Positions 32,687-48,248 of a stretch of DNA of 64,000 nucleotides are shown piece by piece. Both the position numbers and the translations under genes were made by a program. Location: positions 1,048,695-1,112,694 of the forward strand of contig NC_009051.1 of assembly GCF_000015825.1 (NCBI RefSeq), given 5' to 3'. Source of the stretch: Methanoculleus marisnigri JR1. Lineage in GTDB: Archaea; Halobacteriota; Methanomicrobia; Methanomicrobiales; Methanoculleaceae. Each line of letters starts with the position of its first letter. Within the stretch, counting starts at the first letter, position 1. The notes beneath the pieces are model-generated. The model was not told where the DNA came from, searched no databases, and saw only the letters and a program-made list of their open reading frames with translations.

Positions 32687-33787
32687 TTGGATAAATTAAA
32701 AGAGAAATATAAAGCATACTCTATACCCTCGGCACGAGAGCGAATCGGTGATGCTCTTGAGGAAGACAAAAAGCACCACACTCTCGTGAAACAATGCGCA
32801 AAATCTTTCGCACAGACCAACCTTTCACAGAGATCCGGATACGAATTTTATTTTGCAGAGCCCCTGATCGAGTTCGGCTCCGCAAAAAAGGGAAATCACA
32901 CTTTCGATCTCTTCCTCTACAACGAAGGCGAAAACCGTGCGATCTTCGTCGAGTGCAAATCCTCGATCACCGATGTAAGAAAGACGTTAAAAGAGGTCGG
33001 ATTATCCCGTGATCTGGTCCTTGAAAAGACGGACTACCTTTCGGATACCATAGACATCGAGCTGGATCCCAACCGGTTCGAGTACGTGCTCTGCATCAAC
33101 GAGAAGGACAAGATGAAGATCATCGAGTCCATGAAGGCACAGGGTCAGAAGCCGCATCCCAAATACGATATCAACCTGATAAAAGTCTGGGTTTATGCCC
33201 CGCGGTCTCAACTGATACAACTTCTCCTCGAATGCTCGCATGAGAATTCGGCATTAAATGAGATGCTGCAGGCGGGTTTCGGCGATCAGGACCTCCACCA
33301 GCAGTATGAACTCCCTTACTGTTACTCGACGAACCCTTACCGGCTCATCCAGCTGGCAATTATCGGGGAATGCTACCGAAAGAACCTGTTCGAAGATGGT
33401 ATCGAAGATCCGAAGATCATCCAGAAAAGCGCAGTGCTCTCGACCTTGATGAATAACGTCTCTCTGGGCGTTTCAGAAGATCAGAAGAAGCGGATGGTGA
33501 TGGAGAAGTTACGAATTGTCCTCGAATACGGGCAGAAGTATCAACTATTCGACGAAGTCGGCGCCGATGCTATCCGGCTCAACTGCCGGGGATCTAAACT
33601 CCGTGCCGTTCTTGAGAATATCGATGCAAAATTTATTGATAGGTGGGTCGATGAGAAAGCCAGCGCAGAGGGAGAGAAACTCGCACTTGAGGACTACCGG
33701 AAGAATGCCATGAGGAATCAATCCACGCTGTCCCAATTTCCCAAAAAAGATGATACCTCCGTTGAAGGAGAGAGATCAGATCCCTGA
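32687..33787 (+). CDS. Predicted PD-(D/E)XK nuclease-like protein; true start probably upstream
   Basis: 366 aa from TTG 32687. Core: FYFAEPLIEFG...HTFDLFLYNEGENRAIFVECKSSI, giving the order E, D, then ExK (VECKS), the PD-(D/E)XK hallmark, followed by a helical C-terminal half. The frame stays open back to 32606 with convincing protein (IPREKEDFQAFYKRSPPEV) and GGTGAT at 32606-32611, so translation probably begins at a non-ATG codon (ATC 32615 or ATT 32621). Paired with the unrecognised gene upstream and convergent with hsdRSM. A restriction or defence nuclease is plausible but unproven. Confidence 0.72.
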   Translation: MDKLKEKYKAYSIPSARERIGDALEEDKKHHTLVKQCAKSFAQTNLSQRSGYEFYFAEPLIEFGSAKKGNHTFDLFLYNEGENRAIFVECKSSITDVRKTLKEVGLSRDLVLEKTDYLSDTIDIELDPNRFEYVLCINEKDKMKIIESMKAQGQKPHPKYDINLIKVWVYAPRSQLIQLLLECSHENSALNEMLQAGFGDQDLHQQYELPYCYSTNPYRLIQLAIIGECYRKNLFEDGIEDPKIIQKSAVLSTLMNNVSLGVSEDQKKRMVMEKLRIVLEYGQKYQLFDEVGADAIRLNCRGSKLRAVLENIDAKFIDRWVDEKASAEGEKLALEDYRKNAMRNQSTLSQFPKKDDTSVEGERSDP

Positions 33788-33937
33788 CTGACTATTAAGC
33801 CTTTTTCGCATCCCATAAGTGAGACCTTATGCCAATCAGACTATCTTCACTCCTGATGGAACAGAAACCCTTCGTATGACTCCTCATCCAGCACGGACTA
33901 TCGTAACTAAAGAGTACTAAGATAGCCCCTTCCATCC

Positions 33938-35455
33938 TTATTTTTCAGACTTTTTGAGCATCTCCTTTAATTCCTCAAGATTCTGCTGGATCTGGCTCTC
34001 TAAAGCCTGGATTTTATCGATGATCACTTCCGGAGGCTCATACTCGACCTCTTCGTATTCTATCTCCTTGTAGCGAGAGATCGAGAGGTCATAGTTATTC
34101 GCCTGGATCTCCTCGACCGGCACATAGAAGCACTTCGCCTTCCGGTCGGTCGGGTTTGTATCCCTCCGCTCCCTGAACCGCTCGATGATGTCAGGGATAT
34201 CGCCCTTACCGTCGATGAATGTCCGCTTGTCGTCGAGCGAGTAACCGTCCGCCTCCATGTCGTAGAACCAGACCTTCCCGGTTTTTCCGCCCTTCACGAA
34301 GATCAGTACGGCGGTCGACACTCCCGCATAGGGCTTGAAGATCCCGGAGGGCATGGAGACGATACCCTCCAGTTGATTCTCCTCAAGGAGCATCCGTCGA
34401 AGCTCCTTATGCGCCCTGGAGCTCCCGAAGAGCACGCCGTCAGGCACGATAACGCCGCACTTCCCACCTATCGTCAGGAGTTGTATCATCCGCTCGACTA
34501 GGAGTAGTTCGGTCTTCGTCGTGCCGAGCGAGAGGCTGTCGTTGATGTCGCTCTTATCGATGCTCCCCTTGAAGGGGGGATTGGCGAGCACGACGGTATA
34601 GCGCTCTTCTTCGGTGTATCGCTTGGAGAGGGTATCTTTGAGCTCGATGTGAGGCGCTTTGATGCCGTGCAGCATCAGGTTCATGAGCGATATCCGGGTC
34701 ATCGTGGAGTCGAAGTCGAATCCGTAGAATGTATCGCTCCAGAGCTTCTCCCAATGCTTCTGATCGGTGATATTGTCGCCGATGAGGTTATGGTATTCTC
34801 CCTCGTCGTCGACCTCCAGAAGGTCGGGACTCGTGTACTTCCGGATGATATGCTCATACGAGTTGATGAGGAAGCCAGCCGTACCGCACGCCGGATCGCA
34901 GATCCGGTCGGTGATGTCAGGATCGACCAGTTCAACGATCATCCGGATGATATGACGCGGGGTGCGGAACTGCCCGTTCTTCCCGGCGGTGGAGAGCTGC
35001 GAGAGAAGGTATTCGTAGATATCGCCCTGAGTGTCGCGGTTCTGCGCCGTGATATTCATCTCGTCGATGAGAGCGACCGCTTCCTGGAGGAGGGAGGGCT
35101 TCGGGATCATAAAGACGGCATCGCGCATCTGTTGAGCAAAGAGTGTCTTCTCACCGTTATGGAGGGACTGGATGAAGGGGAAGACCTTATCGCGGACGTG
35201 TACAAGCATCTGCTCGGCGGGATAGTGCTTCCAGCTTGACCACCGGCACTCCTCATGCTCCTCGAAGACCGACGTATACGGTACTCCCCGCGCTCGCGCT
35301 CGATTCTGTTCGACGCCATCCATATCTTCGAGGCGCTTCATGAAGATGAGGTAGGACATCTGCTCGATGGACTGGAGCGGGTTGGACATTCCTCCGCTCC
35401 AGAAGCGATCCCAGAGGGTGTCGATCTTTGATTTTAGGTCAGAGGCGAGTTTCAT
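33938..35455 (-). CDS. hsdM: Type I restriction-modification system, methyltransferase subunit HsdM
   Basis: 505 aa N6-adenine methyltransferase subunit. HsdM N-terminal helical domain (KSKIDTLWDRFWSGGMSNPLQSIEQMSYLIFMKRLEDMD), SAM motif DPACGT from Asp187, catalytic NPPF at 292-295, and a C-terminal coiled coil (EVIIDKIQALESQIQQNLEELKEML) contacting HsdS. Works with HsdS for methylation and with HsdR for restriction. Last gene of hsdR-hsdS-hsdM. It starts inside the hsdS stop (ATGA). Confidence 0.97.
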   Translation of the reverse strand: MKLASDLKSKIDTLWDRFWSGGMSNPLQSIEQMSYLIFMKRLEDMDGVEQNRARARGVPYTSVFEEHEECRWSSWKHYPAEQMLVHVRDKVFPFIQSLHNGEKTLFAQQMRDAVFMIPKPSLLQEAVALIDEMNITAQNRDTQGDIYEYLLSQLSTAGKNGQFRTPRHIIRMIVELVDPDITDRICDPACGTAGFLINSYEHIIRKYTSPDLLEVDDEGEYHNLIGDNITDQKHWEKLWSDTFYGFDFDSTMTRISLMNLMLHGIKAPHIELKDTLSKRYTEEERYTVVLANPPFKGSIDKSDINDSLSLGTTKTELLLVERMIQLLTIGGKCGVIVPDGVLFGSSRAHKELRRMLLEENQLEGIVSMPSGIFKPYAGVSTAVLIFVKGGKTGKVWFYDMEADGYSLDDKRTFIDGKGDIPDIIERFRERRDTNPTDRKAKCFYVPVEEIQANNYDLSISRYKEIEYEEVEYEPPEVIIDKIQALESQIQQNLEELKEMLKKSEK

Positions 35456-36636
35456 GCTACCAGTTCCCCGGTGAAGGCTTTTGACATTAAATTGTTTAAC
35501 AGAGAAGATTTTTCAACAGCAGATTTGTTTTGGATATCCCTTGTAACCTGAATACTTTGCGCAATTTTGGCAAATCTATTCTGAAGGTCTAAAGGAGGTA
35601 GAATAACATTAAGATCAGAAAGAATCTTCAAATTAATATTACGTTGCGCTGTTTCAGGGGCAGAATCCCATAAAATATTCTTGTAGTGTCTTAACATCAT
35701 TTCTGTAAATATTGGATTCGCTTTATCAGGCATTGGGCTTACTCCAACAACACTATCAGGAAAACAACTATCAAAATCTAAAATAGCGGTATCTCCAATA
35801 TTTGCTGCAATTGCTATAACAATTATCCCTTTTTTGAATAGTTTGCTGATTTTTAGACCCTCATCGTTAAGGGTTTGAGAAAAAGTGGTTAATCTGCCCC
35901 CACTTCGGGAAATGTCTCCGGTTTGAATGAAAGGATAAGATCCACCATAAAAGCGAGGCTCATTTCTCGGCCGATGTGAGAATTTACCTCTTTGGAGCAC
36001 TGCAATTGCATCCAGTTTCACAATATCCCACCCTTTTGGATTCGTCGCTGGGTCTCCAAACATCTCCAGAAACACGTTCTGCATCAGTTTCTGCGTCAGC
36101 GCATCCGCCTCCGCCCGCAGGCGCTGCGTTGCCTCTGTCTTCTCAAGAATGGCGACGATTTTGTACTGAGTTTCGATTGGAGGAAGGGGGATATAAACGT
36201 CTAACAGAGTCTTTGGGTTTACTCTTGGAAGGTTCGCACCTGACGATTTCGCATTAATCATACTCACGAACTCAGGCGTCCGTAAAAAATAGCCCAGGAA
36301 TTCTCTTATTAGCAGGTCGCTGTCCGGCTTAATGGGGATGATATCAGTGCTGCATACGCCAGCAAAATCAGGCAAATATACTTTGTTCAAATATGGCCTT
36401 AATTTACCGTACAATATGTGCTCTTCTGTGAACCCAAATTTGTTGCTCTTTATATCATCGCCAAGTGTTTCGGAAAAACTTACCAGTTGGCCTGTGTTGC
36501 TCTCGATGTTCTCCAGGCCAATATAGTTCTGAAGCTCTCCCCTCATTTCGTCAGGTGAAACTGCTTTATTATCAATTTTTGCGACCTCTTCTAGTTTCAC
36601 CAATCTCCATCCCTCAGGCAACTCCTTCTTCAGCAC
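35452..36636 (-). CDS. hsdS: Type I restriction-modification system, specificity subunit HsdS
   Basis: 394 aa DNA-recognition subunit. Two target-recognition domains: TRD1 (about 1-150, GWRLVKLEEVAKIDNKAVSP ... LPRVNPKTLLDVYIPLPP) and TRD2 (about 200-350, GWDIVKLDAIAVLQRGKFSHRP). They are separated by the conserved coiled-coil spacer (IETQYKIVAILEKTEATQRLRAEADALTQKLMQNVFLEMFGDP), with a second spacer at the C-terminus. The TRD DNA is strikingly AT-rich while the central spacer DNA (about 36030-36185) is GC-rich like hsdR/hsdM, the signature of domain shuffling. Confidence 0.96.
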   Translation of the reverse strand: MLKKELPEGWRLVKLEEVAKIDNKAVSPDEMRGELQNYIGLENIESNTGQLVSFSETLGDDIKSNKFGFTEEHILYGKLRPYLNKVYLPDFAGVCSTDIIPIKPDSDLLIREFLGYFLRTPEFVSMINAKSSGANLPRVNPKTLLDVYIPLPPIETQYKIVAILEKTEATQRLRAEADALTQKLMQNVFLEMFGDPATNPKGWDIVKLDAIAVLQRGKFSHRPRNEPRFYGGSYPFIQTGDISRSGGRLTTFSQTLNDEGLKISKLFKKGIIVIAIAANIGDTAILDFDSCFPDSVVGVSPMPDKANPIFTEMMLRHYKNILWDSAPETAQRNINLKILSDLNVILPPLDLQNRFAKIAQSIQVTRDIQNKSAVEKSSLLNNLMSKAFTGELVA

Positions 36637-36642
36637 TTCTCC

Positions 36643-39480
36643 TTACGCCCCCGCCGCAAACAATTCCCGCTCCAGCCCCTGACAGATGCCGATAAACGCC
36701 TTCAGATCGCCCTCGTCAAACATCGGCATCGGTGCAGTACTCCCAAAATTCGTGAATGGAGCGAGGAATAGATCGTCCATTTCTATACGCCTCTTACGCA
36801 TAAAAACGGTCTGAATCGTCCGGATGAAGTGAAGTTGATCGGCGGTGTAGTGCTTATTGCTCTCGATCATGTAGGTCTGAAACGCCTCTGCTATCTTCTC
36901 CTTAGGATCAGGCGCTTCATAGAGACCGAAGAGCGAGCGGATAAACTCGACCAGCGAGCCATACGGGTGACGCGGCGAGATCTGCAACATCTCTTCGGTG
37001 ACGTTCACTCCCGCCTCCGCCAGCGCCTCTTCGAGATCGTGAAGGTCGGCTTCGGTTATCGGGTCATCCCGGAGAATCTTCTGGATAACCGGGTTATGGT
37101 CGGCCAGCTCCGTCACCCGCTTCTCGACCTTCTCTCTGAATGCCACCACGTACTCCGGAGCATCCTCCTTGAGCGTCCAGAGCGTGCGCTGCTCGATGAT
37201 ATCCCCCATGTCGATGACGATCGGCTCATGCGCCTCCTTCGACATGTACTTCATGAGCGGGGCGATCTCCTCCACCAGCCCGATCGCATCCTCGAATGAC
37301 AGACCCTTCCAGAAGGCATGAGTCAGTACCTCGTCCAGCCGCTCCTCTTTTTCCTTCACAATATTGAGCGTGCGGGGGAGGTGATCGACCATCTCCCCGA
37401 TCTCCGGGGCCAATCGCTCGATCTCCTTCTCGTTGCCCTCCAGCACCGCCAGCCCCAGCCGCTCTGCTTTCACGGTGAAGGATGCCTCTTTGAGGTTCAC
37501 GCCGGTCTGGAAGCGCATGAGGGGCATGATCGTGGTCTTCAGGTTCTCCAGCGGGTCGAGCCCGACATTATCCCAGAGCTTCGGGGAGAGGGCTTTGGCG
37601 ATCTCCCGCTCGTGCTCCCGGACGGTTACCGAGTCCATCGGAAGCGAGCGGATATCCTCTTCGAGCCTCTGCCGGACGATCGCCGCCCGCTCGTCGTCGC
37701 CCTGCTCCAGGAGCCGCTCCAGTTGCTTCAGCCGAAGGAAGAAGATCCGGCTCGTGATGGCTTCGGTCGGCTCGTTCTTCACCCCTTCGGGATTCATATT
37801 CCAGTACTCGAAGTTATTCCAGAAGTCGAAGACCTTGAAGTACTCTTTATGCCCGTCCGGCAGCCATTCCCGGTGTTTGCACGCGCCATCCGACCGCGTC
37901 CCGCGCCCCAGCATCTGCCAGAACTTGATCTTTGAGAAGACGGGTTTGGCGAAGACCAGGTTGCAGACCTCCGGCACATCGATGCCGGTATCGAGCATAT
38001 CCACCGAGATCGCCACGCGGGGGAAGGACTCGTGTTCGAAGTCGTGGATGAGGGCCTCGGCGCGGGGGTCGTCCGAGACGATGATCCGCGCCAGCCGTCC
38101 TTTATATTCGGGATACAGGTCGTCGAACGCCTCATGCAGCCTTCGAGCGTGCTTCTTTGAGATGGCGAAGAAGATCGACTTTGCCGGAAGTGTCCCGGCC
38201 TGATCCATCTGGCATCCCTCCATGAACTCCCGCACGATCGCTTCGGACGTACCTTTGACGGCGACCTTCTTCTCCAGCTCTGTCCCTTCAAAGTTGATCT
38301 CGTACGGGTCGATCCCCTGCTCGATCAGCCGGTTGCGCTCGCTCTCCGTCAGGTCGGAAGGGTGGAGACCTTCGATCTGGAAGTGTGTCTGCGCTCCGAT
38401 GATGCTTTTGCGGAAGTCGACCAGGACGCCGTCCTTCACCGCCTCGTCATACGAGTAAAGCGCGGTCGGCATATTGTCGTTACAGTGGAAGAACCGGAAG
38501 GTGTCCCGGTCGACCAGTTCGGCAGGTGTTGCCGTCAGCCCGATCTGCATGGCGTCCAGGTAGGTGAAGACATCCCGCCACTTGTTGTAGATGCTCCGGT
38601 GCGCCTCGTCGGAGAAGATCAGGTCGAACTCTCCGGGGGAGATGAGGTTCTGCCCGTGCCTGTCCTTCTGGGTGTATATCTCCTGAAATGTCTGGATGGT
38701 AGAGACGTACAGCCGTTTTTCCTTATTGTAGATCCCGTGCAGGATCTTGTCCTTGGCCTCATGGGGGAAGAACTCCAGGAAGCCTTTATTCCACGCCTGA
38801 TCGCGGAGCGCCTTTCGGTCGGCGAGGAAGAGCACTTTCTGCGCCCGGTTCTCCTGGAGGAGGGCATCGATGATTGCCATCGCCACGCGGGTCTTGCCGG
38901 TCCCGGTCGCCATGACGATCAGCCCTTTGCGGTGACCTTTACGGATGTGCTCCAGCACGCGCTTGACGTTCTCGATGCTCTTTGAGCGGTCGACAATGCG
39001 GGTATTGATCTCGATCGATCGGGTGGGATCGATCTTCTGAATCTGGAAACGGAGCCGCTCCAGGTCTTTCTGCGCGTAGAAGCCCTTCAGCAGCCGGAGT
39101 GGGTAGCGCTCCCGATCCCAGAACCAGATCTCATAGCCGTTGGAGAGGAAGATGAAGACGTCTCTCCCGGTCTGCCGCTTGATGTCATCGGCGTACTGCT
39201 CCGCCTGCTTCTGTCCGATGAGCGGATCTTTCGAGGTGCGTTTGGCTTCGATAATGGCGAGCGGCGCGCCCAGGCTATCGAGCAGGAGGTAGTCGACGTA
39301 CTTGCTCTCCAGATCATTCTTCAGTGTCTCAGAGACGGTCTTATAGGAGCGTGCGAGAAAGTCGGATTGCTTGGTATCGACTTCGGGAATGACAGAAGCG
39401 CGGTTCATAACGTCCCAGCCCTGCTCGGCAAGGTAGACGTCGATTTTACTCTTCCGCGTCTGTAATTCGGTTAAGTCCAT
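36643..39480 (-). CDS. hsdR: Type I restriction enzyme HsdR (endonuclease + helicase)
   Basis: 945 aa. The N-terminal PD-(D/E)XK nuclease has Asp63 (KYVDYLLLD) and Glu78-x-Lys80 (IIEAKR). The SF2 translocase has Walker A ATGTGKT (191-197), DEAH at 291-294, GLTATP, and the motif VI LGRGTRSDG. A long helical C-terminal domain (about 600-945) binds the methyltransferase core, including the EcoEI_R_C-like end. All catalytic motifs are intact, so restriction should be active. First gene of the operon; its stop is 6 bases before the hsdS start codon. Confidence 0.97.
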   Translation of the reverse strand: MDLTELQTRKSKIDVYLAEQGWDVMNRASVIPEVDTKQSDFLARSYKTVSETLKNDLESKYVDYLLLDSLGAPLAIIEAKRTSKDPLIGQKQAEQYADDIKRQTGRDVFIFLSNGYEIWFWDRERYPLRLLKGFYAQKDLERLRFQIQKIDPTRSIEINTRIVDRSKSIENVKRVLEHIRKGHRKGLIVMATGTGKTRVAMAIIDALLQENRAQKVLFLADRKALRDQAWNKGFLEFFPHEAKDKILHGIYNKEKRLYVSTIQTFQEIYTQKDRHGQNLISPGEFDLIFSDEAHRSIYNKWRDVFTYLDAMQIGLTATPAELVDRDTFRFFHCNDNMPTALYSYDEAVKDGVLVDFRKSIIGAQTHFQIEGLHPSDLTESERNRLIEQGIDPYEINFEGTELEKKVAVKGTSEAIVREFMEGCQMDQAGTLPAKSIFFAISKKHARRLHEAFDDLYPEYKGRLARIIVSDDPRAEALIHDFEHESFPRVAISVDMLDTGIDVPEVCNLVFAKPVFSKIKFWQMLGRGTRSDGACKHREWLPDGHKEYFKVFDFWNNFEYWNMNPEGVKNEPTEAITSRIFFLRLKQLERLLEQGDDERAAIVRQRLEEDIRSLPMDSVTVREHEREIAKALSPKLWDNVGLDPLENLKTTIMPLMRFQTGVNLKEASFTVKAERLGLAVLEGNEKEIERLAPEIGEMVDHLPRTLNIVKEKEERLDEVLTHAFWKGLSFEDAIGLVEEIAPLMKYMSKEAHEPIVIDMGDIIEQRTLWTLKEDAPEYVVAFREKVEKRVTELADHNPVIQKILRDDPITEADLHDLEEALAEAGVNVTEEMLQISPRHPYGSLVEFIRSLFGLYEAPDPKEKIAEAFQTYMIESNKHYTADQLHFIRTIQTVFMRKRRIEMDDLFLAPFTNFGSTAPMPMFDEGDLKAFIGICQGLERELFAAGA

Positions 39481-39905
39481 ACGATTTCTCCACGCCGGGG
39501 AGAATAGGAGAATAACGAGCCCTATTCATTAGTTAGTAAAAACAGGCGTGTAAATAAGGGTTGTGAAATCTTCGTGACCGATCATCAAAATTGAAGGAAC
39601 TTTACTCGCCATTCTCCCTTGAGATTGGTATTAGGTCTTTTCTCCATCGTGAAAAAGAAATGATCTCAAATGTCTATGAGAGGTATGGCTTGTTATGCCT
39701 TGGAAAATATAGTACCAAGCCCTCTCTACTATTGTATCAGACTGAAGTGGTGTAAAATGTGAGTTTGAGGTTTCTCTACTATTATCCTCTGAATCAAGAA
39801 ATAAACAAATCTCTGGAGAGGGCTTCGACGGAGAACCTTTTTTATTCCTTTTAAAAAGGGTATCTATATATATAGGCGTGATTTATTTTGTGTCAGGGAG
39901 CTCTA
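39481..39905. promoter_or_regulatory. AT-rich divergent interval between hsdR and the PIN-like gene
   Basis: 425 bases without a convincing gene. Near the right end is a strong TATA, CTATATATATAGG (about 39861-39873), about 33 bases before the ATG at 39906, preceded by a CCTTTTT/AAAAAGG hairpin (about 39838-39859). A 10-bp inverted repeat, AAGCCCTCTC (39717-39726) and GAGAGGGCTT (39816-39825), encloses about 90 bases containing two near copies of TCTCTACTATT. hsdR promoter elements should lie at the left end. Confidence 0.5.
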
Positions 39906-42077
39906 ATGAGCAAAACATCTGCAGTAGGAATCAGTTGCCAAAAAGATGAATGTGGGGCAATAGATAATCAGACTTTAATTAAATTGTCTAATTTAACAAG
40001 GGGAAAGATTTTAGATAGAAGGAGGGATGTTAGGAGAAATATTATCTTGACAACCCTAGGTCAATACGACAAAGGTGAGATACTCGATTATCAAGAGTTA
40101 ATCGACAAAATCTATACGCTAACAAAATGTCACTTTGAGAAAGAACAAGTATTAGCCATACTATCAAATTTAGAAGATGAAGATATTGTAGAGAACATTG
40201 GTGAATTTACTTACCGACTTATCACCCAAGTTGACATCCCAGATATAAATGATTCGATAATGCCCGTTTGGAATGAATTCTTTCAAGAATATATATCGAA
40301 TCGTAAGATTAAGTACGACCCACATATCCATAAAAATGCTCAGGTAGCATTCAATGAAATTATTCTAAAGATTATATCTCAGTTTACGATATCAGAACCT
40401 TTTGAGAACCAAGTTGAGTCTATACCTATAGAAAATTTGCAATTGTTAATACATTCTGTTGTTAATAGCTTATTCTTCCCAAAAGACAAATTCAAAGACA
40501 AATTACAAGGATTACTACTTGAATATCTCACTTCTGAAGCATCTGAAAACCAAAACTTATTAGCGCTCATTTATAGTTGTTACGACGCATTGATAAATGT
40601 AAATTTGTTAAAATTAGAGCAGGATTTTAAAAATCTCGACATCAACTTTTCTGACCATGTAATGTTCCTACTTTTGGACACTAATTTCATTATAACACTA
40701 TTAACAAAAACCGATCCGAAACACTCATTGTCAGTTGCCTTAGTAAAACAATGTGCTAAGTCTGAAATACCTTTACTGTATAGTAACTTCACTAAAGCTG
40801 AACTAAACTCGTTAATAAGGTCTGTCCAAACGGAGTTGGCGTCATTAGGTGTTGCAAGTAAGAGATCACCAAGTGACAATCAATTAATTCTGGATTATTT
40901 TAAGCATTATCAAGAATATCGGACCTCTTGGAGTCAATATAGCGCATATCTGGATACATGGGAGTCAGTAATTCAAAAAAATTGGAATATTCAACTTCTT
41001 CCAGATAATATTGCAATAAAGAAAGACAACGCAATATATGAAGTTGTAAAAGTATCTTTGAAGACGTACGATGAAGCAGCACAGAAAGATCGATCTGAAA
41101 ATGGCATTGATAATCACTATAGACAAAAGTCTGAGGAATCTTACAATCACGATGCTTTTTCCGTGTCTTATGTTTTCAGATCTAAATCAAACTTCGAAAA
41201 AGATGGTAACTTTAAACCATATGGGCCGTGGTTCTTAAGTTACGATAACCGTCTTTCGATAATCAACAAAACAACATTAGCGAAATTCAATAAATACGGT
41301 TACGTAATTCAACCTAGGATTTTATTAAACTACCTGCATACGTTTACCAATGTTGCAATAGATGCAAACGAAGAAGAAGAGTTTGCACTTGCATTACTCC
41401 GTTACACGGCGAGAGTAACTTATCCAAAATTGACGTTAGATGAGTATTCTCAGCTTGTTGCGATTAAAATAGGCGTTGGAGAAGATAATTCTACAATCCT
41501 TAAAGAAATATTTCTTCAATCTCCACTGATTGAAGAATTACAGAGAGCTCTTGTGGATAAAGATTCAGGAGCAGCTGATCGCAAAGCAGCAGAGATTTTA
41601 AATTTAGCTAATGTTCAAGAAATGATGGAGAAAATAGGCTTCTCGCAAAAAGAAAAGAGTGATTATGATGAGAAAGTGAATCGATTACAATCTGTGCTTC
41701 GAAGATTAAGAGAAGAAACCAAAATAAAGGATGCCGAGATACAAATTTTACGAAACAACCCGACATATAATTATAATTATTACCAAAGTTTTTCGATTCA
41801 AAACAACGGCAATATAATTAACGTAAGCATGGACTTAGAATTAGATCCCGCTATACGGCAAAAATTTATTGCAATTGTTCAGTTGCTTGAATCCGAAAAA
41901 GCTTATGAATCAGAGTTAATTGAATTGCCCCCTTCAAAAATTGATGGAAAGAATGTTAAAGACTATTTGTGCAAGGTCTCTGAGAAGATCTCGCAATCTC
42001 CAATGACACAGGGGTTAAAGGAGATTTTACCAATAATCTCTTCAACGATTTCAATAATAAATGGCTTCATGTCATAA
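39906..42077 (+). CDS. AT-rich 723-aa protein with a PIN-like nuclease centre, candidate defence gene
   Basis: Layout: winged-helix-like N-terminus (about 1-110, LTRGKILDRRRDVRRNIILTTLGQ), helical region, then a PIN-like core with Asp258 (LLLDTNF), Glu299 (KAELNSL), Asp416 (HDAFSV) and Asp447 (SYDNRL), the usual acidic tetrad but with a long insertion. A coiled coil follows (about 580-620) and then an Asn/Tyr-rich linker and a C-terminal domain. Start: ATG 39906 with GGGAG upstream, rather than GTG 39888. Base composition is far more AT-rich than anything else in the window. Stand-alone, divergent from hsdR. Function inferred only. Confidence 0.75.
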   Translation: MSKTSAVGISCQKDECGAIDNQTLIKLSNLTRGKILDRRRDVRRNIILTTLGQYDKGEILDYQELIDKIYTLTKCHFEKEQVLAILSNLEDEDIVENIGEFTYRLITQVDIPDINDSIMPVWNEFFQEYISNRKIKYDPHIHKNAQVAFNEIILKIISQFTISEPFENQVESIPIENLQLLIHSVVNSLFFPKDKFKDKLQGLLLEYLTSEASENQNLLALIYSCYDALINVNLLKLEQDFKNLDINFSDHVMFLLLDTNFIITLLTKTDPKHSLSVALVKQCAKSEIPLLYSNFTKAELNSLIRSVQTELASLGVASKRSPSDNQLILDYFKHYQEYRTSWSQYSAYLDTWESVIQKNWNIQLLPDNIAIKKDNAIYEVVKVSLKTYDEAAQKDRSENGIDNHYRQKSEESYNHDAFSVSYVFRSKSNFEKDGNFKPYGPWFLSYDNRLSIINKTTLAKFNKYGYVIQPRILLNYLHTFTNVAIDANEEEEFALALLRYTARVTYPKLTLDEYSQLVAIKIGVGEDNSTILKEIFLQSPLIEELQRALVDKDSGAADRKAAEILNLANVQEMMEKIGFSQKEKSDYDEKVNRLQSVLRRLREETKIKDAEIQILRNNPTYNYNYYQSFSIQNNGNIINVSMDLELDPAIRQKFIAIVQLLESEKAYESELIELPPSKIDGKNVKDYLCKVSEKISQSPMTQGLKEILPIISSTISIINGFMS

Positions 42078-42139
42078 TTTACAAAATTTTACTCTTTCCA
42101 TTAATGCCCAATCTCCTTTCCCCAGCCAGATCTTCAATG

Positions 42140-42286
42140 TTAGACCTCGACGGCCTCCCGTGCCATCGCTATCGCCTCATCGACGGTCTCCCCGAAGGTG
42201 ACGCAGCCGGGAAGGGTCGGCACAATAACGGTATACCCGCCTTCCGGCTCTCTTCTGAGGAGGATACGGTAATTCAGACATCTCAT
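42140..42286 (-). pseudogene. hicB: HicB antitoxin, C-terminally truncated (copy a)
   Basis: 48 codons: MRCLNYRILLRREPEGGYTVI then VPTLPGCVTFGETVDEAIAMAREAVEV and stop. This is the HicB partial RNase H fold up to the first helix. The usual continuation (a second helix with IEGLLERGEEIP and an HTH or RHH end) is missing. A second copy at 43781-43921 is cut at the same residue. No hicA follows. Possibly a translated fragment, but not a complete antitoxin. Confidence 0.7.
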
Positions 42287-42464
42287 CGGATTGCACCCCT
42301 GCTCGTGAAGTACGTTACCCGGTGATGCATAAAGGGTATCCGTGCGGGTGTTACCCCGCAGTTGAGAACCCACGAAGAACACATTCACAGACGAGACAAC
42401 CGGCCAAGATCTGTTGGTCAAGTATTGTCACGACAAAGAGAGATGCTATTCTATCGGTGAGATC

Positions 42465-42677
42465 ATGAGGACGTTCACGGCTGTGCTCTACAGGGAAGAG
42501 GATATGTACGTCGCGGAGTGCTCGGAGGTCGGCACCGTCAGCCAGGGCAGGACGGTTGAAGAGGCGGTGGCCAACCTCAAAGAGGCTACGGAGCTGTACT
42601 TAGAAGAATTCCCGCTGGAAGATGGGAGGCGGCCGATCATCACGACGTTCGAGGTGGCCGAGGGTGCCCGGGCTTAA
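42465..42677 (+). CDS. hicB: HicB-type antitoxin
   Basis: 70 aa: MRTFTAVLYREEDMYVAECSEVGTVSQGRTVEEAVANLKEATELYLEEFP, the complete short HicB fold (strand-strand-strand-helix-strand). Antitoxin to the downstream HicA. The ATG at 42465 has GGTGA 4-9 bases upstream. The open frame continues 51 bases upstream without an SD. It overlaps the hicA start by 14 bases. Because that hicA is broken by a frameshift, this antitoxin is now an orphan. Confidence 0.85.
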   Translation: MRTFTAVLYREEDMYVAECSEVGTVSQGRTVEEAVANLKEATELYLEEFPLEDGRRPIITTFEVAEGARA

Positions 42678-42940
42678 ACCCATCTCAGGCGAGGCAGTGA
42701 TAAAGATACTCTCGAAACAGTATGGATTCATCGTAAGCGGGCAATCCGGGAGCCATGTTCGCCTTTCAAAAGAGACGCCCAACGGGAAAGTGCGACTGTC
42801 TGAAAGAAAGGAGTTTGAGCACCGCAAGGTGTGAGGTAGGGACAGTTGTCCCGCTGCACAACGAACTGAAGATCGGTACACTTCGCAGCGTCCTGAAGCT
42901 GGCGAAGATCGATCCTGAGGATTTTGCCCGGTATCTTTGA
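42664..42940 (+). pseudogene. hicA: HicA toxin split by a 46-bp insertion/frameshift
   Basis: From GTG 42664: PGLKPISGEAVIKILSKQYGF, then IVSGQSGSHVRLSKETPNGKV, normal HicA with the catalytic His in GSHVRL. The frame then enters RLSERKEFEHRKV and stops at 42834. The missing end, VGTVVPLHNELKIGTLRSVL and LKLAKIDPEDFARYL, follows in another frame to 42940. About 46 bases (42788-42833 or so) are extra; removing them restores a full HicA. The inserted peptide begins RLS like the segment before it, so a local duplication is possible. Confidence 0.85.
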
Positions 42941-43001
42941 GAGGGCCTTCTCGGCTGGCCGCAGGCCGCGCTGAACCTGTCCTGTATAACAGGTTGAAGT
43001 T

Positions 43002-43256
43002 TTACAACAGATCTCTAATCTCCTCCCGCTCAATCCCGGCCTGCTTGAGGATCTCCAGAAGCGTGCCGGTCGGATGGTCCCGCCCGTGCACCGGGACGAC
43101 GGCCCGGCGCTTTGTCTCCGGGTGATAAAAGAGGTGGTGGCTCCCTTTCACCCTACGTAGCGGTCGGTAGAGGATGAGCCCCTCGATCACCGGCCCCTTC
43201 TTTTTTAGAATCCTGGTAGCGGTCAGACACCCCCTGAACTGTCGGAACTCACTCAT
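43002..43256 (-). CDS. hicA: HicA-like toxin with an altered core
   Basis: 84 aa: MSEFRQFRGCLTATRILKKKG, then PVIEGLILYRPLRRVKGSHHLFYHPETKRRAVVPVHGRDHPTGTLLEILKQAGIEREEIRDLL, the standard HicA C-terminus with GSHH. Between KKKG and KGSHH there are about 8 more residues than in typical HicA. The DNA for this extra part contains a 23-bp stretch shared with 45793-45815. No hicB is next to it. It may be inactive. Divergent from the RelBE-like pair. Confidence 0.65.
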   Translation of the reverse strand: MSEFRQFRGCLTATRILKKKGPVIEGLILYRPLRRVKGSHHLFYHPETKRRAVVPVHGRDHPTGTLLEILKQAGIEREEIRDLL

Positions 43257-43282
43257 CTTTCCCTCGGCACATTCGCGTGCAA

Positions 43283-43311
43283 CATTGTAAATATGATAAG
43301 CACTTACAATG
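43283..43311 (+). promoter_or_regulatory. Inverted repeat operator of the RelBE-like pair
   Basis: CATTGTAA (43283-43290) and TTACAATG (43304-43311), a perfect 8-bp dyad with a 13-base AT-rich spacer, end 5 bases before the antitoxin ATG at 43317. Antitoxins of this class commonly autorepress through such dyads. The AT-rich spacer (ATATGATAAG) may include the TATA box. Confidence 0.65.
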
Positions 43312-43316
43312 CTATC

Positions 43317-43520
43317 ATGGCTGCAACCAAGAGGATTCCCGTCTCGGAAGGGATATGGGCGGAGATCTCCGAGCTGAAGCGCCCCGGCCAGACCTTCGAT
43401 GATCTCCTCTCGCAGATGGTCGAGCAGGAGAAGAAGCGCCGGTTCATCGAGGATATGGACCGCATCGAGGCCGAAGGGGATTTCGTGGAGCTGGAGTTTG
43501 ACGTTCCGGATACTGATTAA
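43317..43520 (+). CDS. RelB-like antitoxin
   Basis: 67 aa: MAATKRIPVSEGIWAEISELK then RPGQTFDDLLSQMVEQEKKRRFIEDMDRIEAEGDFVELEF. The N-terminal basic strand and helix match the small archaeal VapB/RelB-like antitoxins (RPGQTFDDLL is a frequent motif). The acidic C-terminal tail would wrap the toxin. Start at 43317; an in-frame ATG at 43293 lies inside the operator dyad, so it is unlikely. It overlaps the toxin start. Confidence 0.8.
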   Translation: MAATKRIPVSEGIWAEISELKRPGQTFDDLLSQMVEQEKKRRFIEDMDRIEAEGDFVELEFDVPDTD

Positions 43521-43782
43521 CAAAAAGGCCCTTGAGAGTATCCGGAGCCTCAGCGAGAAGAGCCGGCGGATAGTCATGGACAAGCTGAAAACCCTGCAGG
43601 ACGACCCGTATCCCGGCAGCGGTAAGGAGCGCCTGCACGTGCACGGGCGGGAAGATACCTATAGGCTGCATATCAGCCGGACATTCACGGCATTCTATCG
43701 CATCCATGAGCAGGAGCTGGAGGTTCATGTTCTTGCCGTGATGTCGATCGAGCAGGCGCACAAACGGTATGGATGGTTCTGA
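43498..43782 (+). CDS. RelE/ParE-superfamily toxin
   Basis: 94 aa from TTG 43498 (MTFRILINKKALESIRSLSEKS), with RRIVMDKLKTLQDDPYPGSGKERLHVHGREDTYRLHISRTFTAFYRIHEQELEVHVLAVMSIEQAHKRYGWF. The RelE fold signature is the DPYPG loop, YRLHISRTFTAFYRI and the C-terminal strand with AHKRYG. Ribosome-dependent mRNA interferase or related activity. The TTG is used because the frame has no ATG before the conserved region; CTG 43513 is an alternative. The toxin stop abuts the truncated hicB on the other strand. Confidence 0.82.
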   Translation: MTFRILINKKALESIRSLSEKSRRIVMDKLKTLQDDPYPGSGKERLHVHGREDTYRLHISRTFTAFYRIHEQELEVHVLAVMSIEQAHKRYGWF

Positions 43783-43921
43783 CGGCCTCCCGAGCCATCG
43801 CTATCGCCTCGTCGACGATCTCCCCGAAGGTGACGCAGCCAGGAAGGGTCGGCACAATAACAGTATACCCGCCTTCAGGCTCCTTGCGGAGGAGGATACG
43901 GTAATTCAGGCTTCTCATCAT
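43781..43921 (-). pseudogene. hicB: HicB antitoxin, C-terminally truncated (copy b)
   Basis: MMRSLNYRILLRKEPEGGYTV then IVPTLPGCVTFGEIVDEAIAMAREAV, nearly identical to copy a at 42140 and cut at the same residue. The frame then runs on as antisense of the RelE-like toxin. DNA identity to copy a is high over about 150 bp and extends past the start codon (shared GCTCGTGAA at about 43934). Thus a truncated hicB was duplicated around the RelBE-like pair, or two such fragments recombined. Confidence 0.75.
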
Positions 43922-43950
43922 ATTATAACCCCGCTCGTGAATGGTACAGG

Positions 43951-43995
43951 CCCCGATGGGGGCATAGTGGGTATCTGTGCCTGTCCCCATCGGGG
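43951..43995. repeat. 11-bp perfect inverted repeat with self-complementary arms
   Basis: CCCCGATGGGG (43951-43961) and CCCCATCGGGG (43985-43995) with a 23-base spacer. Each arm can also fold on itself (CCCC-GAT-GGGG). It lies just upstream of the truncated hicB (on the minus strand) and upstream of the small gene at 44053. Could be a terminator, an operator or a scar of a mobile element. No T-run follows directly, though CCTTTTTTGG is 6 bases downstream. Confidence 0.8.
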
Positions 43996-44052
43996 GCTAT
44001 CCTTTTTTGGGTCGACGAAAAAGCATATGAAGCATCGAACCAAGCAGGTTGT

Positions 44053-44181
44053 ATGGCAAAGAATCAGCGTGCCGACGTTAAGAACCCCAACAACCCCTCA
44101 CACAAAGCAGCAGTGGACAACAGGGCGAATCAGCTCAACCCGAACAACACGGCCACGAAGTCCGGCAGATCTAAGAAGTGA
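44053..44181 (+). CDS. Small hydrophilic NPNN-repeat protein (42 aa), hypothetical
   Basis: 42 codons beginning MAKNQRADVKNPNNPSHKAA and ending in a basic GRSKK tail. It contains two NPNN(P/T) motifs in a duplicated pattern (KNPNNPSHKAAVDNRANQ and LNPNNTATKSG). Very polar, probably disordered. Small NPNNPA-type proteins of this size are widespread in prokaryotes but uncharacterised. GCATATGAAG about 26-30 bases upstream may be the TATA, and AGGTTG precedes the ATG. Confidence 0.75.
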   Translation: MAKNQRADVKNPNNPSHKAAVDNRANQLNPNNTATKSGRSKK

Positions 44182-44327
44182 TTGCCTGAAAAACGTCCTA
44201 CCTTTCTCCACAATGTGCAGCTTGCCCACACCAAGCCGGGCCTTTACTCCATAGCGGAGCAATCCGCAGATCTCCACATCCTTTATCACCTCCCGCTCCA
44301 ACATCTACTCAAAGTTGAAAGTCGCCT

Positions 44328-44669
44328 ATGCCTGACGATCTCATAGCAATCGTAGAAGAATCCGAGGACGTGAACAGCGCTCTCATCTCCCGGGTGCGCC
44401 TGGAGATACTCTGGGCGCTCTCCGAACTCGGCGAGGACGGGGCCACCGCACGGCAGCTCAAGGCCGGGCTGAACCTGAGCGACGGCGTGCTCTACGCAAA
44501 CCTCAAGAAACTTGTCGAGATGGGGTACCTCCGCTCCGAGAAGGTGACGCTCGAAGGGAAGGAACTGGAGCTCTACGCCATCACCCCGGAAGGACTCGCC
44601 GAGTGGCGGCGCGTCCGGGGCTGGCTCTGCAAACTCCTGGGCTGCGAGGGTGATACCTGTGAACGATAG
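44328..44669 (+). CDS. Winged-helix transcriptional regulator
   Basis: 113 aa. VNSALISRVRLEILWALSELGEDGATARQLKAGLNLSDGVLYANLKKLVEMGYLRSEKVTLEGKELELYAITPEGLAEW is an archaeal wHTH (PadR/ArsR-like) with helix-turn-helix at about 40-65 and a beta wing. It ends with a Cys pair region (LCKLLGCEGDTC). First gene of a three-gene unit with a YwgA-like protein and MazF. Likely autoregulator of the operon. Confidence 0.82.
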   Translation: MPDDLIAIVEESEDVNSALISRVRLEILWALSELGEDGATARQLKAGLNLSDGVLYANLKKLVEMGYLRSEKVTLEGKELELYAITPEGLAEWRRVRGWLCKLLGCEGDTCER

Positions 44670-45189
44670 AAGCAAAGTCATTGCCTGCTTCCGGGAAGCG
44701 GGATTCCGGATGAATACGGATCTGTTCGAGCACCGGCTCATCGCCCAGAAGCTCGTCTACCTGCTGAGGCTGAAGGGCGTCGAGTTCGTGTATCCGTTCC
44801 GCCTCTACGTCCGGGGGCCGTACTCGCCGAACCTTGCGCGGGAGTACTACCAGCACGCCGATGAGTTTTCCCGGTGCGAAACGGAGAGCACGCTCTCTCC
44901 CGCCGAGGCGGATGCCGTTGCCGGGCTCACCGGCCTCTTCGATAAAAGCCCGTCCCTGCTTGAGATCGGGGCGACCTACGGGTACCTGGCCTACGAGATG
45001 CGCCAGCCGCCGGAGCAGGCATACCGGATGGTCCGGAGGATGAAGTCCTTCTACTCAAATGAGCAGATCGTCAAGGGCGTCAACCGGGCAAAGCAGTACC
45101 TCTTCGTCCCCACCGACGAAGAGAAAGCGGCGCTCGACGCCGAGCTAGGGGAGTGGCAGCGGGCCGGTATCCGGTCGATGAGGCATTAG
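44659..45189 (+). CDS. YwgA-like / DUF4065-type protein in a toxin-antitoxin operon
   Basis: About 176 aa from GTG 44659, chosen because GGTGAT lies at 44649-44654; GTG 44650 is an alternative. FEHRLIAQKLVYLLRLKGVEFVYPFRLYVRGPYSPNLAREYYQHAD matches the YwgA-type pattern (QKLVYLL ... YxLYxRGPYS). This is related to the Panacea/DUF4065 domains found in many antitoxins. It overlaps the wHTH gene by 11 bases and is followed 1 base later by mazF, so it is a candidate antitoxin or chaperone for MazF. Confidence 0.7.
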   Translation: MNDRSKVIACFREAGFRMNTDLFEHRLIAQKLVYLLRLKGVEFVYPFRLYVRGPYSPNLAREYYQHADEFSRCETESTLSPAEADAVAGLTGLFDKSPSLLEIGATYGYLAYEMRQPPEQAYRMVRRMKSFYSNEQIVKGVNRAKQYLFVPTDEEKAALDAELGEWQRAGIRSMRH

Positions 45190-45190
45190 G

Positions 45191-45526
45191 ATGGGCCGGA
45201 GCAGGGGCGATATCTGGTTCGTCGATCTCACCGACGCACGGGGGCACGAGCAGAGCGGGCTCCGGCCCGCCGTGGTGCTCGCCGTCTCTTACGGGGGGAT
45301 GACAATCGTGGTTCCGCTCACGACGACTCCGGCGGCTTTTTCGTTCCCGCACACCTACGGCATCGAGAAGAGTTCACAGAACGGGCTCTCCTCCAACAGT
45401 GCGGCGCTGGTCTTCCAGATCGTTGCCCTCTCAGAAGACCGTTTCGTCAAAAAGATCGGGCGATGTTCGGTCGAAGATATGGAAGCGATAAGCGTTCTGT
45501 TGAAGGATCTGTTATTGCTGGAATAA
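45191..45526 (+). CDS. mazF: MazF/PemK family mRNA interferase toxin
   Basis: 111 aa: RGDIWFVDLTDARGHEQSGLRPAVVLAVSYGGMTIVVPLTTTP, with the GDIWxVxL start, the RPAVVL core and the PLT-T loop of MazF. NSAALVFQIVALSEDRFVKKIGRC includes the conserved Q(I/V)xxLx(K/E)xR segment. Expected to cleave mRNA at short motifs. No MazE (AbrB-fold) antitoxin is adjacent. The preceding YwgA-like and wHTH genes take that position. Confidence 0.88.
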   Translation: MGRSRGDIWFVDLTDARGHEQSGLRPAVVLAVSYGGMTIVVPLTTTPAAFSFPHTYGIEKSSQNGLSSNSAALVFQIVALSEDRFVKKIGRCSVEDMEAISVLLKDLLLLE

Positions 45527-45596
45527 CCGGCGGACGATCTCGCTCCAGGAACGCTGAACAGCGTTCTCAAACAGGCAGGGCTGAAAGGATTGAATA

Positions 45597-45817
45597 ATGT
45601 ATCGATTTCTTGTCATCGTCGAGCAGACCGACGGCAACTACTCGGCATACTCCCCGGATCTCGCCGTCGGTGCGTGGCGACCGGAGCGACCCGCGAGGAA
45701 GTGGAAGAGCGGATGCACGAAGCGATTGAGTTCCACATCGAAGGGCTCCGGGAGGATGGGCTCCCTATTCCGCCGTCACGGTCTTCAGCAATCTACGTGG
45801 CGGTCGGTAGAGGATAA
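45597..45817 (+). pseudogene. hicB: HicB antitoxin with a frameshift (copy c)
   Basis: Starts MYRFLVIVEQTDGNYSAYSPD in one frame. After LPDL-equivalent codons near 45660-45670 the HicB reading resumes in another frame as CVATGATREEVEERMHEAIEFHIEGLREDGLPIPPSRSSAIYVAVGRG. The expected PGC turn is damaged. The last 23 bases match a segment inside the HicA-like gene at 43153-43175. It converges on a HicA N-terminal fragment. Confidence 0.75.
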
Positions 45818-45832
45818 CGTCCTCCTGTCACC

Positions 45833-46010
45833 AAACCCCTTCTTTTCCAGAATCTTAACGGCTTTCCGGGCCGTGAGCGCCGGAAGTTCAGGCATGGGCC
45901 TCGACGGTGAGGGTGTATTCCAGGAGCCCTTCCTCGGTGGGGATTTCCTCACCTCTCGCTAGCATGCCCTCAATGTAGAGTTCAATTGCCTCCCGTGCCA
46001 TCATCGGTTC
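45833..46010 (-). pseudogene. Fragmentary hicB-hicA pair (HicB C-terminus, HicA N-terminus)
   Basis: On the minus strand MMAREAIELYIEGMLARGEEI then PTEEGLLEYTLTVEAHA (ending at 45888) is the C-terminal half of a HicB. It is followed after 4 bases by MPELPALTARKAVKILEKKGF (from 45895), the first 21 residues of HicA. The HicA then runs into the convergent hicB end. The HicB part is fused at its N-terminal side to the relic described next. Confidence 0.75.
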
Positions 46011-46608
46011 GGTGAGGAGGGGGTTCGCCGGCAACCGACCCGTGAGCCTGCCGGAGTTTTTCGAGAGGGACGGCGGGAGGGTACCAGGGTTCCAGATCTC
46101 CAGGCGGTCGGAGAAGAGCATCACCTGGACGCTGGCCGGTGTAGTCGCGGTGGGCGACGGCGTTCACGATCGCCTCCGCTGCCACCTCCTTCGGGATCTC
46201 GTAGCGCACCGACGCCTGCGGGCCGGGTAGTGCAGGCGGTCACGGCGTATCCCTCCCGGCAAGCAGGGCACGGCCCCTCTCAGTGATCCGGTACTTCTGG
46301 TTGCTGCTCCGGGGCCTGTCCGGGACGGTCATCTCGATCAACCCTGCCTGCATCATTGGTTTCAGCACGGAGTTCCTGAACTTGGTGCGGTTCGTCCTCC
46401 CTGTAACGTCCATAAGTTCGGAGATCGACGTCTCCGCCACACAGGTGCGCAACACTTCGACTTGGTCCCCACTTAGTCCCAACTTGGTCCCCACCAGGTC
46501 CCTCGTTTGAGCACCTATCACCAGGTCTCGTCCCGGGCGCCACAGAACCTGGACGAACTGCTGGCCGTTCTGCCGGAATTCCGGCGGCGGCAGTCGTCGC
46601 GCTACCAT
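45985..46608 (-). pseudogene. Scrambled COG2865-type (AlbA-2/ATPase-like regulator) gene relic
   Basis: Pieces recognisable on the minus strand: RYEIPKEVAAEAIVNAVAHRDY (from about 46209) and, in another frame, MLFSDRLEIWNPGTLPPSLSK then ANPLLTEP (about 46124-46010), the GHKL-like centre of COG2865 regulators. PPPEFRQNGQQFVQVLWR followed by a wHTH-like end (SELMDVTGRTNRTKFRNSVL) at 46602-46240 is its C-terminal part. The C-terminal part lies upstream of the centre, so the gene is rearranged as well as frameshifted. Confidence 0.65.
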
Positions 46609-46614
46609 ATCGCA

Positions 46615-46989
46615 TCATGTATCCGCCGTCGGCGAGGACCTTGATCGCCCGGCGAACTTCACCGCGCATTGGGCAGTCCCACACGAGGGGAAGAGCGGGG
46701 CGGAGACTGCCTCCCCGCACGCCACCCGCCGGAACGAAACAAGCGGGACGATCCAGGCCCCCGTCCGGGTCCGGATCACCAGCGCTCTGCCTGCCGGATT
46801 CACCGCCGCATACCCCTCGATCGTCAATCCGGTCCCACCTTCATGCCGCTCCCGCACCACCTGAGCCGGGCGGCCGAAGAAGATGAGTGCCCTCACATCC
46901 TCGGGTGTGATCCGGTAACGCTCCGCCTCGACGTGGACGATGAGCCCCCCCGCAGCGGTACAGGCGAGCGTGCCCGGCTCTGGGGTCAT
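46615..46989 (-). CDS. Hypothetical protein, possibly decayed at its C-terminus
   Basis: 124 aa: MTPEPGTLACTAAGGLIVHVEAERYRITPEDVRALIFFGRPAQVV, then GYAAVNPAGRALVIRTRTGAWIVPLVSFRRVACGEAVSAPLF. Short beta-rich, no family recognised. The last 30 residues (CGTAQCAVKFAGRSRSSPTADT) look unlike the rest and may be frameshifted. It overlaps the upstream small gene by ATGA, which supports both being real or formerly real. Confidence 0.45.
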   Translation of the reverse strand: MTPEPGTLACTAAGGLIVHVEAERYRITPEDVRALIFFGRPAQVVRERHEGGTGLTIEGYAAVNPAGRALVIRTRTGAWIVPLVSFRRVACGEAVSAPLFPSCGTAQCAVKFAGRSRSSPTADT

Positions 46990-47243
46990 GGCCGCCCCCG
47001 CTCGACGCTGATCGCGTACTGGTGGTTCCGGGTCCTTCTGACGTTGATCTCCCGCACCGCCCTCCCGTGCCGCCGGATCTCGTCCGCGACCGCTCGCGGG
47101 ACGAGGAAGAGCGGCACCGGGGAGACGTTTATCTCTTCCGGTGAAGATGTACCAGTGGCGGCCTGGCCGACGGTGCGGTCACACTTCAGGTTCGGGCTGC
47201 CGCCGCTGGTTTTCGACTCGGTTCTTCTGGTTTCGTGCTGCAT
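46986..47243 (-). CDS. Hypothetical small basic protein
   Basis: 85 aa from ATG 47243 (MQHETRRTESKTSGGSPNLKC), followed by TSSPEEINVSPVPLFLVPRAVADEIRRHGRAVREINVRRTRNHQYAISVERGRP. Unrecognised. The C-terminal half (about 45-85) is basic and may bind nucleic acid. An ATG at 47282 would extend it. CATTATATAAACG (about 47345-47357) on this strand is a possible, rather distant TATA. Coupled by ATGA to the next gene. Confidence 0.45.
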   Translation of the reverse strand: MQHETRRTESKTSGGSPNLKCDRTVGQAATGTSSPEEINVSPVPLFLVPRAVADEIRRHGRAVREINVRRTRNHQYAISVERGRP

Positions 47244-47596
47244 GGTTCTGTACCTCACGCACCGGGATGGTTCCCGGCGCATGCACCATCCTCGGGAGCC
47301 GGGGGTTAAAAGGGTGAGCCAATGGCTCCGGATTAGACAACGGGCATTATATAAACGTTACTTTGCCGGAAACCACGATCCTGGAGGTACGGGCCGGGAT
47401 CACGGATCCCGGGCAGGATCCGGTTGACGATCGATCCGGGTTTTTCCGGTGAGACGCCACCCGGTCCGGCACTCACTTTGGAGAACCGGATCTCCTATCC
47501 CGGGTTCTGCAAAAGAAGTTGCCGGCCGTTGAGGATCCTGTCCTCCCCGACGGAGAGATCGTGTGCGTACCCGGCGTGGCCTGCACCTTCGCGATG
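47244..47596. other. Interval with no convincing gene
   Basis: Between the small basic protein and hepT. Contains one strong TATA-like element (TTATATAAACG, about 47346-47356) and GC-rich short repeats of GGATCCGG/CCGGGATC type. On the minus strand a short run GYAHDLSVGEDRILNGRQLL (about 47580-47520) looks protein-like but has no start or support. I see nothing else. Confidence 0.4.
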
Positions 47597-47959
47597 CTAC
47601 CCGGTGGAACGGATGCGGTCGACCTCGTCGAGGATGGACCGGATCTCCCGCTTGAGCATGGGGAGATCGTCCTGTATGGTCAGGAATACCGCTTCGTAGT
47701 CCACACCGAAGTAGTGATGGATGATTTTATCCCGCATCCCCGCGGCCTCTCTCCAGGGAGCCCCCGGATAACTCTCGCGCAACTCCGGGGAGATCTTCTT
47801 TGCCGCCTCGCCGATAATGGTCGACATGCGCTCGATCCCGGCGCGTTCCAGCCGGCGGTTCCGGAGGTCCTGCGCCGACGAAATTCCTTTGGAGAAATCC
47901 TCGATGCTTATGATGGCATCAAGGATGTGGCGGAGATATGCGGGGTCCTCCGGCGTCAT
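47597..47959 (-). CDS. hepT: HepT (DUF86) ribonuclease toxin
   Basis: 120 aa HEPN-family RNase toxin. [20 protein letters not shown], then [26 protein letters not shown], then the active-site motif [12 protein letters not shown]: Arg76, His81, Tyr83 (Rx4-6HxY). In known systems it is neutralised when MntA AMPylates the motif tyrosine. It starts inside the end of mntA (41-bp overlap). All catalytic residues are present. Confidence 0.92.
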
Positions 47960-48248
47960 AGATCACCACGGCATCACGGTATATTGCATCGGCAAGGTAA
48001 GGGCTCACGGCGTTCTCGTTGACAAGATCCACGTCTCTCCCGAGAGCACGCCGGAGTTCATCCTCGATTCGAACAAGCTGGAAGAGACTCTTTGTGCGGG
48101 CGAACCTGACCAGGATGTCGATATCACTTGCTGCGCCGGCATCTCCCCGGGCATAGGAGCCGAAGACTGCAATCCAGTCGGCACCGTTCCGGGTGAGTAT
48201 ACGAACGATTGCCTCACGGGACTTCTCCGTTAACCTGCGTTCAGCCAT
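47919..48248 (-). CDS. mntA: MntA nucleotidyltransferase antitoxin
   Basis: 109 aa minimal nucleotidyltransferase: [21 protein letters not shown] with Gly30-Ser31 and the DxD metal pair Asp42/Asp44. Inactivates HepT by AMPylation in characterised systems. Start chosen at ATG 48248 ([10 protein letters not shown]); an in-frame ATG five codons earlier (MRGER) is possible, and the frame is open to 48350. The order mntA then hepT with overlap is typical. Intact module. Confidence 0.92.

Follow-up and report, generated by a model that had tools for sequence, protein, structure and literature searches.

Candidate single-gene defence protein with a predicted split PIN domain in a variable island of Methanoculleus marisnigri

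What might a large, solitary and very AT-rich gene be doing beside a complete type I restriction-modification (R-M) system in an archaeal genome? We examined this question in a window of 64,000 nucleotides from Methanoculleus marisnigri JR1, in which the gene occupies positions 39906–42077 of the forward strand; its product is here referred to as P0001. A preliminary description, made from the letters of this DNA alone, had proposed a new DNA-sensing or RNA-cleaving defence protein with a split, PIN-like catalytic tetrad.

The gene and its island

The P0001 ORF is intact, with an ATG at 39906 and a stop codon at 42077, and encodes a protein of 723 amino acids with winged-helix-like, split-PIN and coiled-coil parts, as delineated from the ORF and its homologues. 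An alternative TTG start at 39888 is possible; the methionine of the ATG is where the alignment with the homologues starts. The gene has a GC content of 0.336 (33.6%) and a GC3 of 0.307; the window as a whole has a GC content of 0.60 and the adjacent hsdR one of 0.58, so the abrupt drop in GC noted earlier at 39906–42077 is real. The gene is foreign and AT-rich, and only one copy was found in its own genome (one contig of 2,478,101 bases was searched). The strong promoter that had been ascribed to it could not be established: judged by eye, TATATATATA (39865–39874, forward strand), ~32 nt before the ATG, is consistent with an archaeal promoter and is a candidate TATA box, and a scan for sigma-70 promoters is uninformative in an archaeon.

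Comparison with congeners placed the gene in a variable island of ~19.5 kb (31395–50873), since in three of them the match to the left flank breaks at exactly 31395 and resumes at 50874 after ~200 bp. The island starts at the exact 3′ end of a tRNA-Ala (GGC) gene (31323–31394, forward strand), besides which the window contains no tRNA gene, and is missing from several congeners. No other genome sampled from the genus yielded a P0001 gene. In one ~96% identical congener (G112), the sequence is kept from 46.8 kb of the window back to ~42154, which is just downstream of the P0001 gene, and the contig ends shortly beyond.

Upstream and divergent from P0001, the neighbouring type I R-M system that had been described was identified as a complete set on the reverse strand, with hsdR (36643–39480) next to P0001, followed by hsdS (35452–36636) and hsdM (33938–35455). 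Downstream, HicB-like ORFs were found, one of them the convergent neighbour of P0001, together with a PemK/MazF toxin gene (45191–45526).

Three other observations were made within the island. The hsdS gene has 41.9% GC and is far AT-richer than hsdM (55.0%) and hsdR (57.9%), which suggests exchange of the specificity gene. Segments of the HicB-like antitoxin gene are repeated at 42149–42309, 43781–43941 and ~48494–48632, with 76–89% identity to each other, and are probably decayed copies. Two adjacent ORFs on the forward strand (31501–32610 and 32687–33787), encoding 369 and 366 aa, could be placed in no family of Pfam, PADLOC or NCBIfam; for the second, the search showed a very weak match to the profile of the HsdR N-terminal nuclease, and the two may possibly form a second uncatalogued defence pair.

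Predicted fold and conserved acids

Residues 241–485 were modelled from four sequences with a pLDDT of 80.7 and a pTM of 0.81, the best two of five models being good and the other three poor. The model has the order of strands and helices of a PIN domain, interrupted by a helical insert at ~313–404. Half 1 (residues 253–312, beta1-alpha-alpha-beta2-alpha; 40662–40841) was delimited by the model, profile-profile comparison and a Pfam PIN_3 match in one homologue, and half 2 (residues 405–480, alpha-beta3-alpha-beta4-alpha; 41118–41345) by the model and motif conservation, while the insert between them (40842–41117), with W342 and Y345 shared by most members of a 12-sequence alignment, was recognised from the alignments and the model. 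The earlier figure of over 100 inserted residues holds for the distance between E299 and D416 (~115), not for the insert proper (~90 residues). This insert and the winged-helix N-terminus are features of the family.

When the 241–485 model was searched against PDB with Foldseek, PIN structures took ranks 1–4, 6, 7 and 10, each as a weak match (E 0.018–0.33), and the first ten matches included VapC20 (three chains), a VapBC complex, AF1683, PAE0151 and the PIN domain of human EST1A (SMG6). No Foldseek match had E ≤ 0.001, the best being 1.8e-2 in PDB and 1.2e-3 among viral structures. The latter, the best match in BFVD, was to the phage "PIN like domain" protein A0A8S5M7Q9 (probability 1.00), which has only 366 aa and gave a modest TM-score of 0.46 by query length; by sequence, P0001 had no match in the phage collection. 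By sequence, no solved homologue of P0001 was detected.

Sequence profiles were in accord with this for half 1. The Pfam PIN_3 score of P0001 itself was sub-threshold (12.2 bits vs the cut-off of 27), that of its homologue L004 reached 27.3 bits against the same cut-off, and the distant relative L019 matched Pfam PIN below the cut-off (E = 7e-4). Profile-profile comparison with PIN proteins was significant for half 1 (P = 2.8e-7) and not for half 2 alone, and the excised PIN domain scored 41 vs 13.8 or less in 100 column-shuffled controls.

The four acids of the preliminary description, D258 (in LLLDTNF; codon 40677–40679), E299 (KAELNS; 40800–40802), D416 (HDAFSV; H415–D416 codons 41148–41153) and D447 (SYDNRL; 41244–41246), lie in the model where beta1 ends, within the helix that follows beta2, at the beginning of the helix behind the insert and directly behind beta3, respectively, which by order of elements are the canonical PIN positions. 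They match the four-acid site (D, E, D, D) of the PIN superfamily; an alignment of the superfamily was too diverse to be scanned for a pattern. As the residues had been chosen from one sequence, their conservation among homologues is a fair test of the proposal, and it came out in its favour: D258, E299 and D416, predicted to be the first three catalytic acids, were retained in 15/15 homologues, and D447, the fourth, in 13/15, with E in one of the remaining two and K in the other. All four were invariant in the nine close homologues. With distant members included (12 sequences, 622 scored columns), the sole fully invariant columns were Met1, D258, E299, H415 and D416, with D447 in 11 of the 12; the four acids ranked 7th, 14th, 6th and 11th, respectively, and the chance that four preset columns all fall in the top 14 is ~1.6e-7 (hand calculation). 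Three further bacterial homologues, outside the search profile, also kept D258, E299 and D416, and two of them D447; in L085, K replaces D447 and D replaces H415. The PIN assignment of fold and active site is thereby well supported, and P0001 is very probably a PIN-type nuclease.

For the rest of the protein, the full-length model was poor (pLDDT 55), and conclusions on fold were limited to the winged helix. Foldseek matches of the full model at residues ~45–106 were best to the cullin WHB and other winged helices, with probabilities as high as 1.00, although the E-values exceeded 0.05 and the sequence evidence was sub-threshold; these matches support the winged-helix-like N-terminus described previously, which we place at residues ~36–106 (40011–40223) from these matches and the secondary structure of the model. 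A helical linker (residues ~115–240; 40248–40625, low confidence) follows, and beyond the PIN domain a helical region is predicted (~487–577; 41364–41636). The coiled coil (~581–616; 41646–41753) and the separate C-terminal segment that had been described were both present, in the low-confidence model only; the latter consists of a beta-hairpin and helices (~628–722; 41787–42071) with no membrane segment by hydropathy. The C-termini vary among relatives: a membrane segment was predicted by hydropathy in none of the nine close homologues, whereas one was predicted in L019, L024, L083, L084 and L085. In L020 (L029:665–2791), a DpnII/MboI-type nuclease domain lies behind the split PIN at the C-terminus, and the fourth acid is E.

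Relatives and their neighbourhoods

Whole-genome searches identified four homologues within the order, at 59–29% identity, and further ones in the phylum. The family is sparse: at E ≤ 0.001 it was found in 5/199 genomes of the order and 10/393 of the phylum, a few of these ten being probable chance hits. Matches in L021, L022, L075, L080 and L081 were judged to be chance or fragment matches and were left out. Distant relatives of the same length were found in archaea (L019 and L020) and bacteria (L024, L083, L084 and L085), so that homologues come from both domains, some at less than 20% identity. One protein with 74% identity to P0001 is encoded on a 3-kb contig labelled Clostridiales (L010), which is likely a misbinned archaeal contig. 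No relatives of P0001 were detected in phages, plasmids or IMG/VR, and a search of the same collections with the distant relatives gave nothing except one weak C-terminal match.

No family covering P0001 was found in PADLOC, Pfam, NCBIfam or PHROG. Against PADLOC-DB 2.0.0, P0001 had no match at E ≤ 1, and its distant relatives showed scattered single-member matches only. At the level of sequence, the family thus appears uncatalogued, with no match to a characterised one.

The context of defence type that had been proposed held in the survey of neighbourhoods, as several homologues lie near R-M, Gabija/AbiE or CARF genes or an integrase. A type II R-M system was found near the homologue in L009, Gabija GajA/GajB and AbiEi near that in L030, and an AAA ATPase with a DUF1016/YhcG nuclease gene in L008; near the homologue in L025 are a C-terminal hsdM fragment, an HNH gene and a small PIN gene. 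In L028, a CARF gene is directly downstream of the homologue. In L083 and L084, a tyrosine integrase and an IrrE-type peptidase gene are nearby, with a ParE-type toxin gene in L083. N6-methylase genes within 10 kb were observed at two loci vs ~0.24 expected (hand calculation), a modest excess. No known defence gene was found near the homologues in L006, L007, L026, L027 and L029, some of which are on short contigs. In the P0001 group the gene is solitary, with no conserved partner gene.

Some of these loci have features of their own. The split-PIN gene of L028 (172–2899) encodes membrane segments and lies directly upstream of a gene of CARF3 type, which suggests a link to cyclic oligonucleotide signalling. 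A two-gene version was seen in L083 (8867–11439) and L084 (8873–11448), where the split-PIN gene overlaps at its start with the gene of a small membrane/coiled-coil protein. Near the homologue in L025, an ORF of 1273 aa (4087–7908) has no Pfam or PADLOC match.

Possible roles and comparison with known systems

The computations describe an intact, solitary gene with a conserved PIN-type active site and a family insert, in a mobile context of defence type. Since this uncatalogued family is often found near virus-defence genes, P0001 is probably a self-contained antiviral toxin: we consider it reasonably likely that it is a single-gene defence effector, a PIN-fold, metal-dependent ribonuclease complete in itself. 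Its proposed part in defence draws on genomic context and precedent.

It is rather unlikely that P0001 instead serves the mobile element as a maintenance or regulatory nuclease that stabilises the element, acts in its competition with other elements or controls its RNA. The tRNA gene at the island edge, the bacterial homologues that adjoin a phage-type integrase along with IrrE and ParE, and the several loci without known defence genes are consistent with such a role; however, an addiction module would need the conserved partner gene that the P0001 group lacks, and the recurrent proximity to unrelated defence systems (R-M of types I and II, Gabija, AbiE and CARF) argues against it.

An action on DNA, as a PIN/FEN-type nuclease whose winged helix would direct it to foreign DNA, appears improbable. 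The best fold matches are to VapC-type RNases and the SMG6/EST1A PIN domain, whereas FEN1-type nucleases matched weakly and lower in the list; the winged-helix N-terminus fits a DNA-directed enzyme, but winged helices mediate protein contacts too. The additional DpnII/MboI nuclease domain of the relative L020 also points towards DNA.

The divergent hsdMSR set and the hsdM fragment near the L025 homologue bring to mind PrrC, and P0001 might be a ribonuclease that guards the type I R-M system: the Hsd complex would keep it inactive, and a virus that disables this complex would release it. The likeness to PrrC/RloC is conceptual, in that an RNase gene adjoins a type I R-M locus: these anticodon nucleases contain an ATPase together with a HEPN nuclease, whereas no P-loop ATPase or HEPN domain was detected in P0001 (Pfam up to E = 1). 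A type I R-M system is absent from the vicinity of most homologues, and the GC content of P0001 differs widely from that of hsdR, which suggests separate acquisition, so that we regard this alternative as very improbable. That the acids resemble a PIN tetrad by chance is hardly credible, as the conservation test, independent homologues and the fold search all agree against it, and the sub-threshold Pfam match of P0001 itself is what speaks for it.

If P0001 is an antiviral ribonuclease, we infer the following course for its catalysis, RNA substrate, self-restraint, trigger and antiviral outcome. D258, E299, D416 and D447 would bind Mg2+/Mn2+ in the PIN domain (253–480), split by the helical insert (313–404). 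In place of a dedicated antitoxin, the winged helix, helical regions and coiled coil of the enzyme, its assembly state, or both, would probably silence it until an infection signal lifts the restraint; self-restraint and sensing are guesses here, because the full-length model is poor. The PIN domain would then cleave host or viral RNA, most likely tRNA or rRNA by analogy with VapC, and growth would halt before the virus finishes its cycle.

More tentatively, the family may represent an uncatalogued archaeal-bacterial class of antitoxin-free immune ribonucleases, with the winged helix as sensor, the insert as a gate to the active site, and C-terminal modules that can be exchanged (a coiled coil, a membrane anchor or a DpnII/MboI nuclease); each protein would by itself both sense and kill. 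Little is known of how archaea resist viruses other than by CRISPR and restriction, and the PIN toxins described so far mostly need a separate antitoxin; with large solitary PIN proteins that share an insert, the restraint and triggering of an RNase within one chain become testable. Annotators, in turn, gain a family so far undescribed by Pfam, NCBIfam, PADLOC and PHROGs.

Among known systems, VapC toxins such as VapC20 share with P0001 the PIN fold and the four-acid site, and are the top PDB fold matches of its model. They differ in being ~130 aa long with a cognate VapB, whereas P0001 has 723 aa, is solitary, is split by an insert and is fused to other domains; instead of the adjacent cognate antitoxin that goes with the small PIN protein of VapBC, it has the divergent hsdR upstream and a convergent HicB-like ORF downstream. 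PDC-S70, a phage-defence candidate of PADLOC, is likewise mostly archaeal with a PIN nuclease domain (PMC12988326); no PDC-S70 match was seen among P0001 or its relatives, with a library whose coverage of the PDC-S70 model is unconfirmed.

The closest published concept appears to be DS-3 of E. coli (DefensePredictor, 2026), a one-protein split-PIN defence system with no antitoxin, proposed to be auto-inhibited, in which defence needs the catalytic residues, with one PIN half at the N-terminus and the other at the C-terminus (PMC13092281). The preliminary description, which recognised no described system of this architecture, was thus right by sequence, and in concept DS-3 is a precedent. P0001 is likewise a single protein with a split PIN and, by gene order, no antitoxin. 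It is set apart from DS-3, as that system is described, by PIN halves that are internal (253–312 and 405–480) and separated by an insert of ~90 residues, with a winged helix at the N-terminus and a coiled coil towards the C-terminus.
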